A stretch of DNA of 64,000 bases. Origin: Candidatus Fermentibacterota bacterium (GTDB taxonomy: Bacteria; JAFGKV01). Below the pieces are notes generated by a model. That model did no database searches, had not been told where the DNA came from, and worked only from the letters and a program-made list of their open reading frames with translations. The translations under genes were made by a program, and so were the position numbers. Below, piece after piece: positions 3,052 through 22,960 of the stretch. The stretch is from contig JAFGKV010000096.1 of NCBI GenBank assembly GCA_016928395.1, positions 5,127 to 69,126 of the forward strand, in the 5' to 3' direction. Positions within the stretch are counted from its first letter, which is position 1. Each line of letters opens with the position of its first letter.

Positions 3052-4410
3052 CTATCGAGTGTTTCGGAGCGTCTCCTCCAGCGTCTCAACCAGCGACTTG
3101 ATGCCGGCTCTGGTTTCCATGAGATGCCGTACCTGGGCACAGGCATGAATCACGGTAGAGTGATCACGCCCGCCGAAATAGCGCCCGATATCCGTGGTGG
3201 AAAGCGAGGTCAGACTTCGCGTGAGGTACATGGCGACCTGCCGCGCCTGAGCGATCTGCATGGTGCGGCGCTTCGAGGTGAGGGCACCGGCCTGAAGGCC
3301 CGTGGCGGAGGCGGTCGCCCGGATGATCTCCTCCACCGAGACTGTGGCCGGGGTGCTCTGGATGATGTCAGCGAGGATGCGCTTCGCTTCCGCCAGGTCG
3401 AGGTCTTTCCCTAATGCGGCATGGGCGGCAAGCCTCACGAGGCATCCTTCGATCTGGCGGACGTTCCTGCTGGCATTGTTGATGATGAAGGTCATTACCT
3501 CGGGTGGGCAGGAGAGGCCCATCATGGCCGTCTTCTTGTACAGTATTGCCGCACGGGTCTCGAACTCGGGGGGTTGAATGTCGGCAATGAGGCCGGACTC
3601 GAAGCGGGAGATAAGACGTTGCTCCAACTTTGTCTCGTGGGGCGGGCGATCACTGGTGATGACGATCTGGCTCTTCTTCCTGTGCAGCGTGTTGAAAGTG
3701 TGGAAGAACTCCTCCTGCATGCTGTCCTTGCGCGCGATGAAGTGAATATCATCGATGAGCAGAAGTTTCAGCGAACGGTAGCGCTTCCTGAACTCGTGTG
3801 GCGTGTTCTGGTAGATTGCGCTGACCAGGTCATTCGTGAAATCCTCGGAGCTGACGTAGCGAACCGTGGCGCCCGGGTGATGGCGCATGAGCAGGTGGCC
3901 AATGGCGTGGAGCAGGTGGGTCTTGCCCAGACCCGTGCCACCATAAATGAAGAGCGGGTTGTAGTAGGTCCCCGGGTTCTTTGCCACCGTGACGCATGCT
4001 GCGTGGGCCAACTCATTGCTCTTGCCCACGACAAAACTGTCAAAAGTGAAGGCGTCATTGAGGAACCCCACGGCGGGCGGCGGAAGCATGTCAGGTTCGG
4101 GAACAGCAGGGGTCTCGACAGGGGCCGTACCGGTGGTAAGCCGCAGCGGCACGCGGGCTCCAGCTACCACCTCCAAGGCCCGAAGGATGTCGTCCTTATT
4201 GTGCGACTCAATCCACTGCACATGGAAATCGCTGGGCAGAACGATGACCAACGCACCATTGTCATAGCCCGAAGGGTGGGCGGAAGAGAGCAGCGCGAAT
4301 GCGCCTGGTCCCAGTGCTCCACCGCGATACAGGAGATCGACGCACGCGGCCCAGAGGCTCTCGGGGCTCTGTGTGGCTGAGGCCCGGGCAGTAGTCAACA
4401 GGTTATCCAC
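3052..4410 (-). CDS. dnaA: chromosomal replication initiator DnaA
   Basis: All four DnaA domains are present. An N-terminal domain I is followed by a short proline-rich linker. The AAA+ core has Walker A GGTGLGKT near residue 157-164, Walker B LLLIDDIHF near 216-224, sensor I VITSDR and the box VII arginine finger in RLISRFESG. The domain IV helix-turn-helix carries the family signature GGRDHSTVIHA near the C-terminus. The frame is open to 4464, but GTG 4410 (VDNLL...) is preferred because a purine-rich GGGGGG lies 5 nt upstream and conserved sequence starts there. A consensus DnaA box, TTATCCACA, overlaps this start codon and suggests autoregulation. The divergent rpmH operon and the intervening origin region confirm the identity. 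Confidence 0.97.
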   Translation of the reverse strand: MDNLLTTARASATQSPESLWAACVDLLYRGGALGPGAFALLSSAHPSGYDNGALVIVLPSDFHVQWIESHNKDDILRALEVVAGARVPLRLTTGTAPVETPAVPEPDMLPPPAVGFLNDAFTFDSFVVGKSNELAHAACVTVAKNPGTYYNPLFIYGGTGLGKTHLLHAIGHLLMRHHPGATVRYVSSEDFTNDLVSAIYQNTPHEFRKRYRSLKLLLIDDIHFIARKDSMQEEFFHTFNTLHRKKSQIVITSDRPPHETKLEQRLISRFESGLIADIQPPEFETRAAILYKKTAMMGLSCPPEVMTFIINNASRNVRQIEGCLVRLAAHAALGKDLDLAEAKRILADIIQSTPATVSVEEIIRATASATGLQAGALTSKRRTMQIAQARQVAMYLTRSLTSLSTTDIGRYFGGRDHSTVIHACAQVRHLMETRAGIKSLVETLEETLRNTR

Positions 4411-4411
4411 A
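4403..4411 (+). promoter_or_regulatory. DnaA box overlapping the dnaA start codon
   Basis: TTATCCACA is a perfect match to the classical DnaA-box consensus. It lies across the GTG start of dnaA, where bound DnaA could block translation initiation or transcription. Confidence 0.7.
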
Positions 4412-4978
4412 GGTTCCCCCCCGCGGGATTCGGCCCAAGCGACTCCCCGCACGGGGCGGCACATGGCAGGCCTTGCGGTTTACGGCAATCGCTTAAGACT
4501 GAGGTTGAAGTCATTCGAGAAAACCCTTGAGAAACAAGGACATAAAGGGGATGATGATTGTGAAGATGCTGTGAGCGCGTCTCGACGATGCACCGGGATG
4601 AAGACCTTGAAGGGTCATGGAGTTCCGAAATCGCCATCACACTTGTCCACAGGTTGTACACAGCCTTTGTTGACATCTCCGCAGCCTTCGGTCACAGAGG
4701 TTTTGGCCGATGAGACGGTGCTATTCAGTAGCACGGCGGAGGGGATTCTGTCAACAGAAAACACCGGCTCCTCCTCTGCAGCCGTTCAGCCTTGACCCCT
4801 CGCGTTTGCGCCCTAAGTTGCGGGGTCTACCATTCATACGGGTGGATCCCGCAAGTGGGTGGATTCAGGGCGCTTCCGTTCCTCCGCATCATGAACCGCG
4901 TTGAGGTTCCACTCCCGCCCCTTTGTGTGGGGCATCGCGCATCTGAGTCCACACGTATCTCCAGAACAGGGGTTGTAT
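4411..4978. other. probable chromosomal origin oriC between dnaA and rpmH
   Basis: This 568-base gap between divergent dnaA and rpmH holds DnaA-box-like sites TTGTCCACA (4643-4651) and TTGTACACA (4654-4662), which are direct repeats 2 nt apart, next to the perfect box at 4403-4411. Positions 4489-4566 are clearly poorer in GC than the surroundings (TTAAGACT, AGAAAACCC, ACATAAAGG) and are a candidate unwinding element. A 14-nt near-palindrome, TTCTGTCAACAGAA, lies at 4746-4759. Gene order and box content agree with a bacterial oriC. No convincing gene is seen inside. Confidence 0.65.
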
Positions 4979-15305: not shown

Positions 15306-16535
15306 ATGCCCCGCGCGTTAGTACGGTACGATTCAGGCCTCCGCATTAGTGAACGGGGTCCCATGGCTTCCGAGCACGTTGAATCAGAATCGATTCTGGT
15401 GGTCGACGACGAACCGCAGATCCGCTCGCTTCTGGGGCGCTTCCTGCGCAGGCGGGGCTCCACGGTACTGGAGGCGGGCTCCGGCGCAGAAGGACTGGCG
15501 CTCTTCCAGAAGCACTCACCGGCTGTGGTGATATCGGACATACGCATGCCAGGCATGGGTGGTTTCGACCTACTTAGGGCCGTCCGGAAGATCGACGCCG
15601 AGGTAGAGGTGGTCCTTATCACGGGGTATGGCGAGATCTCCGACGCGGTGGAAGCCATCCGCACTGGCGCTTCAGACTTCATCGCCAAACCCTTTGATCT
15701 TACCTTGGTGGACCATGCGGTGGACAGCTGCCTGGAACGAAGGCGCTACAAGGCGATGGCGCGGGGCTATACGCGCCGGCTCGAGGAGGAGGTGACCCGG
15801 CGAACGGAGGAGTTGGCACACGCGAACAGGGAACTGGAGAAGCTGGGCAAGACCCGGGAGGACTTCCTGGCCCTCATCTCCCACGAACTGCGGACGCCCC
15901 TGGCCGGCATGGGACTCGCAGAGCTGGCCTTTGAAGAGATAGACTCGTTGACGCGAGGACAGGTGCAGGAGATGCTCTCGGGGATCATTGAATCCTTCCG
16001 GCGCCTGCATGCCTTCTCGGAGCGAGCGCTGCTCTACTCGCGCCTCGCATCGGGCGGGCCGGTTCGGCGCAGGGAGGGGGTCGATTTCTCGGAGCTCGTT
16101 CACGACGAAGTCTCCCGTATCGCTAAGACCGCCGCCGACGCCGACATCTCCGTCCGTTGGGCCCCTTTCGCTGGGTCGATGACCACGAATGGCGATCCGG
16201 AACTCCTCCGATTCGTGATTCGCGCCCTTCTGGACAATGCCGTGAAACACAATCGGCGTGGAGGCTCGGCAGAAGTACACCTTGAACCCCGTGACGATGG
16301 GTTCGAGTTCTCCATCACGGATACCGGCGTAGGCATTCCTGGGGAGGCGATTGACAGGGTTTTCCGGCCACTGGATTCGCCCGACATCCTGCACCGCCGC
16401 TCAGGAACCTCCCTCTCGCTAGCCATAAGCAGGTTGATCAGTCAACAGCACGGTATGCAGCTCTCATGCAGCAGCGAGGGCACCGGCAAGGGGGCGACAT
16501 TCACTCTCACCTGTCCAGCACACCAATCGACATAG
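15306..16535 (+). CDS. receiver-histidine kinase hybrid
   Basis: An N-terminal receiver (about 28-145) has acidic residues D34/D35, phosphoacceptor D78 and K128. A coiled-coil signalling helix leads to a HisKA domain with phosphorylatable H193 in LISHELRTPLAGM. The HATPase has a good N box (LLDNAVKHN) and DTGVGIP. The G2 lid reads GTSLSLAIS where GTGLGLAI is normal, which may weaken ATP binding. ATG 15363 (MASEHV) is an alternative start; neither has a clear ribosome site. It is divergent from the preceding PAS gene, with a 160-base gap, and nearly meets the receiver-AAA+ gene at its end. Confidence 0.8.
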   Translation: MPRALVRYDSGLRISERGPMASEHVESESILVVDDEPQIRSLLGRFLRRRGSTVLEAGSGAEGLALFQKHSPAVVISDIRMPGMGGFDLLRAVRKIDAEVEVVLITGYGEISDAVEAIRTGASDFIAKPFDLTLVDHAVDSCLERRRYKAMARGYTRRLEEEVTRRTEELAHANRELEKLGKTREDFLALISHELRTPLAGMGLAELAFEEIDSLTRGQVQEMLSGIIESFRRLHAFSERALLYSRLASGGPVRRREGVDFSELVHDEVSRIAKTAADADISVRWAPFAGSMTTNGDPELLRFVIRALLDNAVKHNRRGGSAEVHLEPRDDGFEFSITDTGVGIPGEAIDRVFRPLDSPDILHRRSGTSLSLAISRLISQQHGMQLSCSSEGTGKGATFTLTCPAHQST

Positions 16536-16545
16536 CTCCATAGAA

Positions 16546-18354
16546 TCACGATCCCGGTGATTCGGGATCGCCTTCCAGGGCATAGCGAAGCCAAGTTCTG
16601 GCGTTCGAAGGCGTGACATCCGATCCCACAATCACGGGGACCTCGCCGGGAACCCGGAAGAGGCGGCGCATGCTGTTGGCCAGGAGGCATTTCGCAGAGG
16701 AATCAGCGCGATGTTCCGCGCCGGCGAACAGCACCACCACAGCCACAGCGACACCTCGAGGAACGGAAGCAACGAGAAGTCGCGCATCGATGATCCTCGA
16801 CCCCGCGCTGTCAAACACCAGCAGATAGAGCGGCACCTGGCTCCCAGCCACAGCCCACGAAAGATCGTCTCCAATGTTCCAACGATTGGTTCCCACGATT
16901 ATCCACTCCGGTTCCGGCGCCTCAGGGTGGAGCAGGCAAGCCCATCTCTCGCCTTCAGGGATTGCCGACACTTGCCCCCTGATGCCGGCGATGGCATCCA
17001 TGGTGTCGATTACCTGCGCGGGAGATGTGCCAAGAACGATGATGGGGGCTGTCTTCGGCGAGGGAACGATGGCAGCGATCTCCTCCGGCGTACCCCAGGT
17101 GCTGGCAAGGTCACCGCTCTTGATGAACACCTTGACGAAGTCGTGAAGCTCCCCCGGCGGCGCGGGCGGCTCGAGGGTCCTCCGCGGCGGCTCCCCGGGG
17201 ACCGCATCGTCGCGAATCGCCATGATCACCTTGTCAACCACGGCCCGGTCAAGACTGATCGAACCAAGAGTGTGCATCGCGACCAGCTTCTTGACCGCGC
17301 CCTCCAGAGTTCGGACATCGCTGTCCAGAGCCGCGGCAAGGTAATCCAAGAGGTCGAAAGCGATGGGCCATCCGCTCTGCAATGCCTTGGTCTTCAAGAT
17401 CGTCGCCCGGAGTGCGGCGTCAGGGGCGTCAACGCTCATCACCAATCCGGCCGCAAGACCCGTGGTAATCTCGTTGATGAGGGTTGAGACCTCCTCGGGG
17501 CGGCGGTCGCCGGAGATCACGATCTGCTTCTGCTGGCGGTACATCTCTGAGAACACCCCCGCGGCGACGGTCTGCAAGCTCGATGATACCGCCAGGAACT
17601 GGATGTCATCGATGAAGAGGGCATCACACTCCATGTAGCCCGCTCTCAGCCTCTCCACAGTCCTGTGCTCGTAGGCATCTATGATCTGCTGGCTGAATAC
17701 TTCGGATGTGAGGTAAAGAATCCGTGTCTGGGAATTCCTGGAATACAGCTCGTTGGCCAGCGCGCACATGAGATGGGTCTTGCCACGGCCCGGACCGCCG
17801 TACAAGAACAACGGGTTGTGCCGCCGGCCGAGGTTGTCCGCTACCGCCTTGGCGGCTTCCACGGCCCGGGAATTTCCCTTGCCCACCACGAAGGTACCGA
17901 AGGAATACCGTGACAGGCGCTCCAGGGCCGAAGCGTAGAAGGGGCCTTCAGTAGAAGGCTGGGTCATTGCGCGGAACTGGGCTCGTCGGCGCAGCAGTGC
18001 TCTGACACGTGCCAGGAACAGCTCAACATTGAAGGGCTTGACTAAGTAGTCGTCGGCGCCCAGTTCCAGACCTTTGATCTGGTCTTCTTCTTCCGCCTTG
18101 CCGCTCAGGATCATCAGCGGTGTGTGACCTACCACGGGATCTGACCGTAGCCGCCGGACCAGCTCAAAACCGTCAAGCCTGGGCATCATCACGTCAGTGA
18201 TCACCGCGTCGGGATGCTCTCCCTGTACCGCGTACCAGCCCTTCTCGCCATCCTCGGCCGTCACCACCTCGAAGTGCTCTCGCTCAAGGACGCTGCTCAA
18301 GAGCCGCAGGATATGGGGGTCGTCATCAACTACGAGTATGCGATCGGCGGGCAC
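16546..18354 (-). CDS. receiver-DnaA-like AAA+ fusion with GTPase-like C-terminus
   Basis: Residues 5-122 are a full receiver: D10/D11, phosphoacceptor D54 in VITDVMMP, S84, K106. Residues 145-375 match DnaA domain III closely: YSFGTFVVGKGN, Walker A GGPGRGKTH (186-194), Walker B ALFIDDIQF (245-253), sensor I VISGDR (279-284) and sensor II VRTLEGAVKKL (347-357). The box VII arginine finger of DnaA (RLISRF) is replaced by NEITTGL, and no domain IV DNA-binding helix or GGRDHS signature follows. Instead about 200 residues form a third domain that I read as a decayed small GTPase. The protein may sense phosphorylation and act on DnaA or assemble as an ATPase of its own. It is on the same strand as dnaA, about 12 kb away. 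Confidence 0.88.
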   Translation of the reverse strand: MPADRILVVDDDPHILRLLSSVLEREHFEVVTAEDGEKGWYAVQGEHPDAVITDVMMPRLDGFELVRRLRSDPVVGHTPLMILSGKAEEEDQIKGLELGADDYLVKPFNVELFLARVRALLRRRAQFRAMTQPSTEGPFYASALERLSRYSFGTFVVGKGNSRAVEAAKAVADNLGRRHNPLFLYGGPGRGKTHLMCALANELYSRNSQTRILYLTSEVFSQQIIDAYEHRTVERLRAGYMECDALFIDDIQFLAVSSSLQTVAAGVFSEMYRQQKQIVISGDRRPEEVSTLINEITTGLAAGLVMSVDAPDAALRATILKTKALQSGWPIAFDLLDYLAAALDSDVRTLEGAVKKLVAMHTLGSISLDRAVVDKVIMAIRDDAVPGEPPRRTLEPPAPPGELHDFVKVFIKSGDLASTWGTPEEIAAIVPSPKTAPIIVLGTSPAQVIDTMDAIAGIRGQVSAIPEGERWACLLHPEAPEPEWIIVGTNRWNIGDDLSWAVAGSQVPLYLLVFDSAGSRIIDARLLVASVPRGVAVAVVVLFAGAEHRADSSAKCLLANSMRRLFRVPGEVPVIVGSDVTPSNARTWLRYALEGDPESPGS

Positions 18355-18540
18355 GGCAGCTCCTTATCTATCAGATACAAGGCATGGCCACAGGTGGCGA
18401 GGGATTCACGGGGCACCTTAATGTGCGCCGTCTCCGCCTCGCCCACAAGATTGTGGAGTGCGGAGTGGGGAGTGGCGAGTGAGGAAGGGTACATCACGGC
18501 GTGGGTGCGGCCCCCACAGGCGGGTGGGCCGGCCGCGTGC
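18355..18540. other. intergenic stretch with heptamer repeat
   Basis: Between two minus-strand genes. Positions 18453-18487 hold five tandem heptamers of the GTGGAGT/GCGGAGT type, a diverged copy of the repeat family at 44231-44370. No gene is seen. Confidence 0.6.
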
Positions 18541-21500
18541 TCATGCCCCTTCCTTGCTCGACAACCCTGCCGATCTCATGGCCGCGATGACCTCACCGAG
18601 CTGAGCCTCTGCGGCTGCGACCAGCGAGTCCGCCCGCCGGCCGTCTCCCGCGGCGCATGCCTGTTCGATTCGGGAAGCCGTGGCCATGATCGAGGCGGCG
18701 CCCACGGAGCCTGCCGCGCCCCTGAGGGTGTGCGCTGTGCGTGCCGCAGCGCGCAGGTCGGATCGACTCAGCGCCTCTCTCATCGCCGAGATCCGCCGAG
18801 GGACATCGTCGACGAACATTGCAGCAAGCTCGTTCGCCAGTGCCTCATCATCCATCGTGCGTTCCATCAGGCCCGTCAGATCGAACACGAGAGAGGGGGT
18901 GTCCGGCGGAGGTGGGATCCCTGCGGCTGCGACGTTGTCAGTTCGATTGACCCAGCGCTCGACGGCGGCGCGGAGTGCGCCGGGGGTGACCGGCTTGGCA
19001 ATGTAGTCGTTCATCCCCGCCTGCAGGCATTGTTGCCGGTCGCTCTCCATGGCGTACGCGGTCATCGCTATGATGGGGATGTCGTGCTTTAGAACAGAAG
19101 ATGAAGGATCACGAATCGCCCGGCTCGCTTCATACCCATCCATCTGTGGCATCTGGCAGTCCATCAGCACAAGGTCATATGGGGCCGTCTCCAGTGCCCG
19201 GAGGGCCTCAAGACCGTTGGCGGCGACATCCACCCTGCAGCCGAGCTTCTCGAGAACTGCCGACGCCACTCGCTGGCTGGTGGCGTTGTCCTCAGCGACC
19301 AAGATGCGGCCCCCGCGTCGATCGGGTGCGTGGCTGCCGGCAGCAGACGCGACAGTGCCGTCAGGGCAGACGCCAAGCACCATCTCAAGGCTTTGGCGTA
19401 ACTGCACCTGTCTGATCGGCTTCGTCAGGAAGGCGGAGAACTCCCCGGCCACCGCACGCGCATCCATCGTGACCTTCCCCAGCGACGAGAGCATGATCAG
19501 CATCGTGGCGCTGATCCGCGGATCTTCCTTGATTCGCTTCCCCAGCTCGAGCCCGTCCATCCCCGGCATCTGCATGTCGATGAGCGCCACGGTGAACGGC
19601 TGTCCCTCCGTCTGGGCCTGCGTCAGGGCCTCGAGCGCTGCCGGGCCGTCGGCCACTTCGGCATGCGTGCACCCCCAGGATGCCAGAAGCACGGCCAGGA
19701 GCCGCCGATTGGTCTGATTGTCATCCACGACGAGAATGCGTGCACCCGCGATGTCGCCTGCGGGTGCCTCAGCGGCGGTGGGCGACGCGGTGGACTTCTC
19801 GAACACCACTGTGAACCAAAACACTGAACCCTGCCCCGGGTTGCTGGTCACGCCGATGTCCCCGCCCATCATCTCAGCGAGTCGTTTCGAGATGGACAAC
19901 CCCAGGCCCGTGCCGCCGAACCGCCGCGTGGTCGAGGTGTCGGCCTGTCCGAACGGGCGGAACAGGAGCGGCAACGCATCCGACGATATGCCGATGCCAG
20001 TGTCCTTGACCTCGAAACGAAGTGTCACCGAGGAAGGGGTCTCACTATCCACGTCGGCGTGTATCGATACTTCTCCCCGATCGGTGAACTTGACCGCATT
20101 GCCCGCCAAGTTGAGCAGGATTTGCCGGAGCCGCCCCGCGTCTCCCCGCACTATGCGCGGCACATCGGGCTCCACCATGCTGATGAGTTCTATTCCCTTC
20201 CCGTGCGCATCGACCGCCAAGAGGGCCGCAGTCTCGTCCAGGACCGCATGGATATCGAAGTCCAGTACTTCCAGGTCCATCCGCCCGGCTTCGATCTTGG
20301 AGAAGTCAAGAACGTCATTGATGATGGCAAGCAGGCTTTCGCCGCTGGATCGTACGATCTCCGCGTACTCTCGCTGCTCGGGAGAGAGTGGAGTGTCGAG
20401 CAACACGCCTGCCATGCCGATCACGCCGTTCATGGGAGTGCGGATTTCGTGGCTCATGTTGGCAAGGAACGCGCTCTTGGCCTTGCTGGCCTCCTCCGCC
20501 ATCACCGCCAGTTCGTTGGCGCGATCGCTGGCCCGTTCAAGTCTCTCATTGGTCACTTCCAGCTCGCGATTCGCCATGCGGAGCCGAATCTCCGCCCTCC
20601 TGCGCTCAGTGATGTCCGTGAGGATGCCGACCAGCCGCCTGACTACGCCATCGGCATCCACAATCGGGTTCAATGCGGCGTGCCACGTCATGTCGCGACC
20701 ATCGGGCCGCAGATAGGCCGACTCGAAGGAAACCTGCTCGCCCCGCGCGGCGCGCGTGAGCTCTGCCTCTATCACCTCGCGGGTTGGTTCAGGCCACAGC
20801 TTTGGAAAGGCTTGGCCGAGGATGTCGTCCGTCGCCCACCCAAGGGCTGCGGCCCCGTTACGGTTGACCATAAGAAAGCGGCCGGTCGGATCGAGCAGCA
20901 CCACGCAGTTCGGGGAGCCTTCCACGAGCCCTCGGTACCGTCTCTCCGAATCCCCGATCACAGTCGAGGTCTCCTGGGAGCGCTGCTGGACCGCGAAGAA
21001 GACCAGAATCAGTGCGGCGACCAGAAGCGTGATGAGAAGCGGGCCCATGCGACTCATGGCGATCACCTGCGCCCAGCGGGATGCATCTACATCCTGTCCG
21101 AGCACCCCCACAACCCGGCCCGAACGGTTCTGGACGATGGGCACGAGCCCGCTTACCCACGTGCCCCACCGGTCGGTGGCAGGCCCTTCGACGAACTCCT
21201 CACCGGTTCGGAAGACCTCTACCAACTCGGCGCTGGCTTCCTCGTATGTTTGGCCGGGGGGAGAGTAGTCCTCCGAACTCTCGGGCTCCGAATCGGCAAG
21301 GAAGATCACCTGGCGGTCACGCATCCCCATCAGGTAGGCGAACCGGCAGTCCGGGAAGGCCCTCCTCACGGCGACGAGCTGCCGCTTCAGCCTCCCGTAG
21401 TCGGGACTGACGAGGTCGGCTTCGGTACCGGCCAACCGCAGGATCGAGTCAGCGTCTATGGCGGCGGCGGCCGTTCGGGTCACGGTCAGGATCACCCGGC

Positions 21501-22284
21501 GCTGGCCGTGGTCCGCCGCCCGTCCCGACTCCTGCGCGAGGATCCACCCAAGACCGAGGGTGATGACGAGGCCGCCCACGGCCACGCGGCTGATGCGTCC
21601 GGCGGCGCGGGCGGCCCGGTCGCCAAACGCGAGCCTGCGGAGCAGCCGGTACCGCCGGCAGAGCGCCCCAGCGATCGCAAGCGCGAAGACCGCCCGCGCG
21701 AGTTGGATCGAGATTCCCGCGAGGGTGCCCGCGTCCGGGAGCGGGACAGCCATGGGCGGTCCCGCCACCGCGGCGAGGCCAAGCCCCGCCATCGCCACCG
21801 CCGCGATGCCGCTGCCCCGCGCCTCGTGGGGCAGCCCCAGGACGGGCGCACGCCACAGCAGCCATGCAGCGGCCAGCGTGGACACTGCGCCGAGGGAGTA
21901 GCGAATCGCGGCGTCAGGGTCGGCGGCCCCCATGCCGACGCTGCCGCATGCCAAAGCCAGCAGGACAAGATGAACCCAGAAGCCCGGGCCGCGCTTCACG
22001 ACGGAGGCGATCCCCGACCGGGCGAACTCCGCCAGGCACAGAAACGACACTGCATTCAGAAGTGGTCCAACAACCGCCGACACGGGGGAGGGTTCGAGAC
22101 TGGGCGTCAAGAGGCCAAGCCATTCGTGGAGCGCCTGAGAGAACCCGAAGAGTGCGCACCACTTCCATGGGAGGTGACTATCCGTTCGCGCCAGCGACCG
22201 TCCGATGACGCCGAGGCATGCAAATGCCAGCCCTGAGAGCAAAAGCAGGAAGTCCGTTTGGTGAGAGAGGAAGTCAACAATCAT
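18541..22284 (-). CDS. membrane hybrid histidine kinase with two receivers and Hpt
   Basis: Numbered from ATG 22284 (the frame is open to 22353). Residues 10-250 contain about eight hydrophobic segments, a membrane sensor module. An extracytoplasmic domain (about 270-405) carries YLMGMRDRQVIFLADSEP and DRWGTWVSGLVP, shared with two other kinases here. After a TM at 413-432 come PAS (450-565), HisKA with H612 in MSHEIRTPMNG, HATPase with GTGLGLSIS, receiver 1 (D903), receiver 2 (D1042) and an Hpt domain with H1185 in ARTAHTLRGAAGS. This is a complete phosphorelay in one chain of about 1247 aa. The final acceptor is not fused; stand-alone receivers or the receiver-AAA+ protein next door are candidates. 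Confidence 0.93.
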   Translation of the reverse strand: MIVDFLSHQTDFLLLLSGLAFACLGVIGRSLARTDSHLPWKWCALFGFSQALHEWLGLLTPSLEPSPVSAVVGPLLNAVSFLCLAEFARSGIASVVKRGPGFWVHLVLLALACGSVGMGAADPDAAIRYSLGAVSTLAAAWLLWRAPVLGLPHEARGSGIAAVAMAGLGLAAVAGPPMAVPLPDAGTLAGISIQLARAVFALAIAGALCRRYRLLRRLAFGDRAARAAGRISRVAVGGLVITLGLGWILAQESGRAADHGQRRVILTVTRTAAAAIDADSILRLAGTEADLVSPDYGRLKRQLVAVRRAFPDCRFAYLMGMRDRQVIFLADSEPESSEDYSPPGQTYEEASAELVEVFRTGEEFVEGPATDRWGTWVSGLVPIVQNRSGRVVGVLGQDVDASRWAQVIAMSRMGPLLITLLVAALILVFFAVQQRSQETSTVIGDSERRYRGLVEGSPNCVVLLDPTGRFLMVNRNGAAALGWATDDILGQAFPKLWPEPTREVIEAELTRAARGEQVSFESAYLRPDGRDMTWHAALNPIVDADGVVRRLVGILTDITERRRAEIRLRMANRELEVTNERLERASDRANELAVMAEEASKAKSAFLANMSHEIRTPMNGVIGMAGVLLDTPLSPEQREYAEIVRSSGESLLAIINDVLDFSKIEAGRMDLEVLDFDIHAVLDETAALLAVDAHGKGIELISMVEPDVPRIVRGDAGRLRQILLNLAGNAVKFTDRGEVSIHADVDSETPSSVTLRFEVKDTGIGISSDALPLLFRPFGQADTSTTRRFGGTGLGLSISKRLAEMMGGDIGVTSNPGQGSVFWFTVVFEKSTASPTAAEAPAGDIAGARILVVDDNQTNRRLLAVLLASWGCTHAEVADGPAALEALTQAQTEGQPFTVALIDMQMPGMDGLELGKRIKEDPRISATMLIMLSSLGKVTMDARAVAGEFSAFLTKPIRQVQLRQSLEMVLGVCPDGTVASAAGSHAPDRRGGRILVAEDNATSQRVASAVLEKLGCRVDVAANGLEALRALETAPYDLVLMDCQMPQMDGYEASRAIRDPSSSVLKHDIPIIAMTAYAMESDRQQCLQAGMNDYIAKPVTPGALRAAVERWVNRTDNVAAAGIPPPPDTPSLVFDLTGLMERTMDDEALANELAAMFVDDVPRRISAMREALSRSDLRAAARTAHTLRGAAGSVGAASIMATASRIEQACAAGDGRRADSLVAAAEAQLGEVIAAMRSAGLSSKEGA

Positions 22285-22960
22285 GGGAGACCCCGCCACC
22301 TGACGTGCATGCCTCACTAGGGCACTCTGGGCGTGAGCCCTGGCCCATCCCATCGGCTACCAAGGAGACGGAAGCCAGTTCCATCGGCATTGCTCCCCAC
22401 CGGTTGTGTTGCGCCATGACAGCCGGGGCGGCAATCGTGGGCGGATCGCCCGCCGATTGCCGGTTCCGTTCCGACGCAATCGGGGGCCTCGTTCAGTGTT
22501 CCAATGGTTCCGCGACGCGTCAGCGTACTCAGCGTACAAGGAAGCCCCGATCGCACGGTGGACGTGACGGCCATGCCCCATCGGGCCCGTCAGCGGGCAG
22601 TGCACAGTGTCTGTTTAGTCCGGGTACCAAAGATACTGCCAGGCGGCGGCGACGCCAGATCCTTGGAGGCCCCCAGGATCCCGAGGTTCTCCGGCGGCCT
22701 GGGCAGCATCGGACCCTGCACGACACTATTCTAATATTAGAATAGTGTCCCGATTCTCTCATGCCCCCCGAGGAGGAGCCAGGAGTTTCGACAGTCCCCC
22801 GGCGTATCCTGCCCCACGGCGAAGGTTGCCCGCCTCTTGAGGCAGACGTATACTCCAGGGTCTCGAAAGCAGCCTTCGTTTCCCATGGCGACGGCGCGCG
22901 CCGGCCATCCGGGCCGACGCGCCGGCGAGGGACCCTCTGAACGAGGAGGCGCCAGGCATC
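22285..22960. promoter_or_regulatory. divergent intergenic region with large palindrome
   Basis: About 675 bases between divergently transcribed kinase genes. It holds a perfect 28-bp palindrome (22722-22749), a 9-bp stem with one mismatch (GATCCTTGG 22658-22666, CCCAGGATC 22672-22680) and a 9-nt direct repeat, CAGCGTAC-type, at 22521-22538. No credible gene. It probably carries the promoters of both kinase units. Confidence 0.5.
22722..22749. repeat. perfect 28-bp AT-rich palindrome
   Basis: The left arm GACACTATTCTAAT (22722-22735) is followed without a gap by its exact complement ATTAGAATAGTGTC (22736-22749). It is strikingly AT-rich in GC-rich DNA. It lies 212 bases before the 12-gene kinase run. 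It could be an operator for a dimeric regulator, a cruciform site or a mobile-element end. Confidence 0.75.

Follow-up and report, generated by a model that had tools for sequence, protein, structure and literature searches.

A gene in the 64,000-nucleotide stretch of Candidatus Fermentibacterota DNA analysed here (the window; contig JAFGKV010000096.1) encodes a response regulator in which a receiver is followed by a DnaA-type AAA+ ATPase. Domain III of DnaA is usually taken as a sign of replication control. The question raised by this locus is whether the protein links two-component signalling to replication initiation, as a first-pass annotation of the sequence proposed, or serves a different output.

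Domain architecture

The open reading frame begins with a GTG start codon, preceded by a Shine-Dalgarno sequence (AAGGAG, 18360-18365); a promoter scan gave no match. An intact receiver joined in one chain to a DnaA domain III with Walker A, Walker B and sensor motifs had been recognized from the sequence, and Pfam searches and structure prediction bear this out (Table 1). The receiver pocket contains the acidic residues D10 and D11, the phosphoacceptor D54, S84 and K106, and the predicted model matches receiver structures with Z about 22-24. The Bac_DnaA family covers residues 149-306, and the model aligns with DnaA domain III (8btg) at Z 24.6 (237 residues aligned, rmsd 2.8), with K192/T193, D249/D250, D283/R284 and R348 all present. 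The relative placement of the domains in the full-length model is poor (pTM 0.41). Domain IV of DnaA is absent, as had been noted: Bac_DnaA_C is unmatched in the Pfam search, and no helix-turn-helix for DnaA-box binding was matched after residue 383, where the predicted fold is that of a GTPase.

We rejected the possibility that a sequencing error or assembly join fused two genes, because the identical domain order recurs in 12 proteins from three metagenome-assembled genomes (MAGs) and the gene neighbours in Candidatus Eisenbacteria Prado127 match. A chimeric MAG was also rejected, given that the Prado127 orthologue (78% identical) has the same neighbours.

Table 1. Coordinates of the features discussed, in the window unless another locus is named.
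Feature	Position	Strand	Basis or content
Response regulator REC-DnaA(III)-putative pseudo-GTPase, 602 aa	16546..18354	-	ORF, Pfam, alignment
Receiver domain, residues 6-117, phosphoacceptor D54	18004..18339	-	Pfam Response_reg E 4.9e-30; structural matches
DnaA-type AAA+ domain III, residues 149-383	17206..17910	-	Bac_DnaA E 1.6e-43; 8btg match
C-terminal putative pseudo-GTPase domain, residues ~414-595, without GK[ST] P-loop	16570..17115	-	Predicted fold
Canonical DnaA, 470 aa (comparator)	3052..4464	-	Box VII arginines intact
Hybrid histidine kinase HisKA-HATPase-REC-REC-Hpt	18541..22353	-	Pfam; H635, Hpt H1208
REC-HisKA-HATPase kinase, convergent, ending 10 bases from the response regulator stop	15306..16535	+	ORF, Pfam
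Type IV pilus locus G000:C299	L029 4939-14338		Pilin-like, PilD, MshEN-DnaA, PilB, PilT, PilC
Type IV pilus locus G002:C14	L048 1310-12924		Pilin-like, PilD, MshEN-DnaA, PilB, PilT, PilC

The C-terminal domain

The first-pass annotation was right about the REC-DnaA(III) core but overlooked a conserved C-terminal stretch of about 180 residues that is predicted to adopt a small-GTPase fold. This tail (residues ~414-595) is conserved across 12 homologues and matched no Pfam family; the best match of its profile among PDB sequences was the GTPase Der, at an E-value (0.02) that alone is not significant. Its fold was resolved only by predicting the domain separately with AF2 (pLDDT 80.7, pTM 0.82). 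The resulting model aligns with YsxC/EngB at Z 12.4 (164 residues aligned, rmsd 3.5) and next with Arf, Arl and Ras proteins at Z about 10-11; all 50 of the 50 matches listed are GTPases, and Foldseek concurs (E about 1e-4).

The tail shares its predicted fold with these GTPases but is only about 10% identical to them. When judged as a small GTPase of the TRAFAC class, the predicted model has the G-domain fold and lacks the P-loop: the G1 motif GxxxxGK[ST] is replaced by GTSPAQVI in the window protein. Since GK[ST] is found in 0 of the 12 members, we read the tail as a putative pseudo-GTPase.

The AAA+ domain and its lost residues

Membership of the AAA+ part in IstB/DnaC, which the first-pass annotation had named as a result that would refute it, was rejected by Pfam, where the DnaA match is far stronger (IstB E 1.2e-7 against 1.6e-43). 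The domain is a genuine DnaA-type domain III. The protein scores 228.7 bits with the NCBIfam DnaA profile, below the equivalog cut-off of 343.9, and 85 bits with the Hda profile, so far under the cut-off of 194.8 that we rejected Hda membership. Sigma54_activat is absent from its Pfam matches, and on this basis a sigma-54 activator of the NtrC type was rejected.

We mapped residues by hand from alignments to E. coli DnaA (offset 14), with residue roles in the E. coli numbering taken from PMC5742627. Walker A and B, sensor I, the sensor II arginine R334 (R348 here) and the AID-2 residue L290 (L304) are kept. The protomer-contact residues R227 and K243 have become M241 and S257, and the Box VII arginine R281 and the arginine finger R285 have become E295 and G299. 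Within the single-stranded DNA-binding H/B motifs, V211 is conservatively replaced by I225 and R245 by S259. With the Walker and sensor motifs kept and R227, K243, R245, R281 and R285 replaced, the ATP face is intact, but the protomer-contact face on the other side is gone, as is the basic residue for single-stranded DNA. Three of the 12 full-length members (C20, C199 and C65) keep the equivalent of R285, and the canonical DnaA of the window has both its Box VII arginines and its arginine finger.

A paralogous family in a narrow lineage

The gene recognized in the first-pass annotation is real, but the multi-copy nature of its family was overlooked. The genome carries four REC-DnaA-pseudoGTPase proteins of equal architecture, including the window protein, and the full-length members number four per genome in three MAGs (n=12), the related ones being Candidatus Eisenbacteria Prado127 (G001) and Candidatus Fermentibacteria CSMAG_2897. 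There are also two shorter REC-DnaA types, the C150 type and the C311 type, the latter with a receiver that lacks the phosphoacceptor. Paralog tails are 31-46% identical to that of the window protein, compared with 50-56% for the REC-AAA part. Of 49 receivers encoded in the genome, six sit in REC-DnaA proteins, as is typical of a general signalling family. The genome has 13 Bac_DnaA matches, two of which (L069 and L070) look IstB/DnaC-like. At L034 (5271-6785), L041 (1850-3322) and L047 (5932-7452), a REC-DnaA type whose receiver is without the phosphoacceptor Asp ends C-terminally in a conserved basic motif, W[YF]DR.

Comparison of domain order across genomes, a check suggested at the outset, recovered the 12 proteins of the three MAGs and none in the other genomes sampled. 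The GTDB phylum of this genome is represented by three genomes in the comparison set. Outside the lineage, no match spanning REC-DnaA was found in overlapping samples of 386 and 289 genomes, searched under strict E-value limits and with scoring confined to the few top candidates of each genome, and no REC-DnaA was found in the G131 phylum (two genomes). A scan for the tail over 84,980 species with one peptide pattern matched only Prado127 and CSMAG_2897.

Genomic context

The location within a kinase cluster, beside a phosphorelay kinase, was confirmed. The hybrid kinase lies upstream of the response regulator on the same strand with 186 bases between them. Prado127 has the two genes in the same order (L036). 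A terminal Hpt domain usually requires a separate receiver. Because the gene follows a hybrid kinase with a terminal Hpt, the response regulator is likely a phosphorelay output, and this kinase is likely its phosphodonor. Other family members have other kinase neighbours: the order dapF, histidine kinase, response regulator and dihydropyrimidinase-like gene occurs at C218 of this genome (G000) and at C253 of G002, with the kinase directly upstream, its stop 3 bases from the response regulator start; C384 in G001 has the same flanking genes, and a kinase with a cNMP-binding domain adjoins paralogs C78 and C49. A dense island of PAS and hybrid histidine kinases spans about 11300-63500 of the window, and this contig accounts for 18 of the 49 receivers.

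The gene had been described as about 12 kb from dnaA and oriC. The distance to dnaA stands, as 12,082 bases separate the start of dnaA from the response regulator stop; oriC is only weakly placed, since the window holds one exact consensus DnaA box against 0.68 expected, and its location upstream of dnaA is a weakly supported possibility. This placement draws on two near-consensus DnaA boxes at 4643 and 4654 (4643-4662) and on a rise in A+T upstream of dnaA.

Across genomes, the proximity to dnaA is kept in the sister species G001 of the same genus (L036) and is absent in G002 of the same family (L065), where the region around dnaA holds gyrA, gyrB, recF, dnaN, yidC and jag and no REC-DnaA gene. 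The linkage thus holds only within the genus. The other REC-DnaA paralogs of the genome are on other contigs and not near dnaA. With six REC-DnaA genes per genome, a single one near dnaA is weak evidence for a role in replication.

Descent of the AAA+ domain

A maximum-likelihood analysis of 56 AAA+ domains clusters all 18 REC-DnaA domains together (support 99/91) and joins them to MshEN-DnaA proteins (100/98); the type IV pilus operon encodes two of the latter. The canonical DnaA of the window falls with other canonical DnaA sequences; constraining it to form a clade with REC-DnaA incurs a penalty of 34.9 log units (AU p 0.012, a value that is indicative because the test was devised after inspection of the tree). 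The tree indicates that REC-DnaA shares descent with the type IV pilus-linked MshEN-DnaA proteins.

Several MshEN-DnaA proteins of 983 to 1,993 aa lie between PilD and PilB/PilT/PilC in the pilus operon. Some combine a pair of DnaA domains with long regions rich in repeats, and the largest retain the arginine finger. The window protein has a receiver at its N-terminus in place of MshEN, and none of the loci read has a REC-DnaA gene next to pilus genes; a pilus link for REC-DnaA is suggested by descent only.

Candidate functions

The protein could in principle terminate a DnaA filament, because it presents the ATP-bearing face and has no arginine finger. E. coli DnaA forms head-to-tail oligomers through bound ATP and Arg285 (PMC5742627), the window's own DnaA has an intact finger, and dnaA lies 12 kb from the gene, with the two also close in G001. 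A phosphorylation-controlled regulator that acts at oriC by capping or poisoning oligomers of DnaA-ATP would fit these observations; however, only one of four full-length paralogs is near dnaA, the linkage is lost in G002, the AAA+ lineage differs from that of the resident DnaA, the R227, K243 and R281 contacts are lost as well, and the DNA-binding domain is absent. Paralogy, lost residues, the tree and the non-conserved linkage led us to set aside the proposed link to replication initiation as improbable, and less likely than a signalling role. An Hda-like inactivator that stimulates hydrolysis of DnaA-bound ATP is scarcely credible: the similarity to Hda is weak (5x06 E 1.1e-4, in addition to the sub-threshold profile score), E295 and G299 stand where the Box VII arginines should be, and the N-terminus is a receiver instead of the clamp-binding segment of Hda (PMC5742627).

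The existence of several paralogs with differing neighbour kinases, and the greater divergence of their tails than of their REC-AAA parts, would suit a phosphorylation-gated AAA+ adaptor or scaffold concerned with neither pili nor replication, in which the pseudo-GTPase tail sets the target of each paralog. This is possible, if on balance unlikely, since most members have lost the arginine finger, contrary to self-assembly of the DnaA type, and this reading does not account for the ancestry shared with the pilus group.

The reading that we prefer, tentatively and a little short of an even chance, is that of a phosphorelay output protein from a lineage-specific response regulator family, with a DnaA-derived AAA+ docking switch, a pseudo-GTPase tail and likely pilus partners. 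The hybrid kinase would hand its phosphate via Hpt to D54, and phosphorylation there would gate ATP-dependent docking of the DnaA module. Docking would be one-sided, because only the ATP-bearing face appears intact, onto a partner with a retained arginine finger, and the tail would bind the regulated target. This one-sided switch, inferred from motifs, would not be general, because three of the 12 members keep the R285 equivalent. The likeliest docking partners would be the MshEN-DnaA proteins encoded in the pilus operon, in which case the output would affect pilus or surface behaviour and not the origin. The least secure step of the proposed mechanism is the target, the pilus being a hypothesis drawn from descent. 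We regard as fairly unlikely the wider proposal that a whole clan of DnaA-derived AAA+ proteins has left replication to become a switch for type IV pili controlled by phosphorelay and second messenger, with REC-DnaA docking onto MshEN-DnaA through heterotypic ATP/arginine-finger contacts and a dead GTPase as targeting tail.

Relation to known systems

REC-DnaA shares with DnaA the domain III fold, Walker A/B, sensor I and the R334 and L290 equivalents, but has a receiver in front and a pseudo-GTPase-like domain behind in place of domains I, II and IV, and M, S, S, E and G at R227, K243, R245, R281 and R285. Hda is likewise a DnaA-family AAA+ protein without domain IV; unlike Hda, REC-DnaA has no N-terminal clamp-binding segment or Box VII arginine, and has the two flanking domains. 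NtrC-type response regulators also place a receiver directly before an AAA+ ATPase, whereas here the ATPase is of DnaA type instead of a sigma-54 activator, and the C-terminus carries the GTPase-like tail and no Fis helix-turn-helix. The MshEN-DnaA proteins of the pilus loci (L029, L048, L066 and L068) belong to the same AAA+ clade and similarly combine a signalling-type N-terminal domain with a DnaA domain III without domain IV, but have MshEN where REC-DnaA has its receiver, and no pseudo-GTPase tail.

We found no description of REC-DnaA, MshEN-DnaA or Eisenbacteria DnaA pili in a literature search that left subscription papers mostly outside its scope. REC-DnaA is a new response regulator output architecture in a narrow lineage, and its domain composition is firm. 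The DnaA ATPase is an exaptable switch module that a whole paralogous family has fused to receivers and apparent pseudo-GTPases, and such proteins should not be annotated as initiators. If the pilus link is true, a phosphorelay would control pili through DnaA-type modules, a route open to experimental test.

Further DnaA domain III proteins were seen at other loci. Other lineages (L057, L058, L060 and L062) encode proteins of 560-710 aa that lack domain IV; an N-terminal domain precedes their domain III, and a conserved C-terminal domain (VGYFYP...) follows it. L055 (5958-12356) and L056 (2480-7732) encode very long proteins that contain TPR-like repeats and end in a DnaA domain III; at its N-terminus the L055 protein has a zinc-finger-like region that resembles DnaG. 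A tandem DnaA-DnaA protein is encoded in another phylum at L061 (3393-5498), and at L071 (4205-5728), also in another phylum, an MshEN-DnaA protein adjoins an MshEN-only protein.
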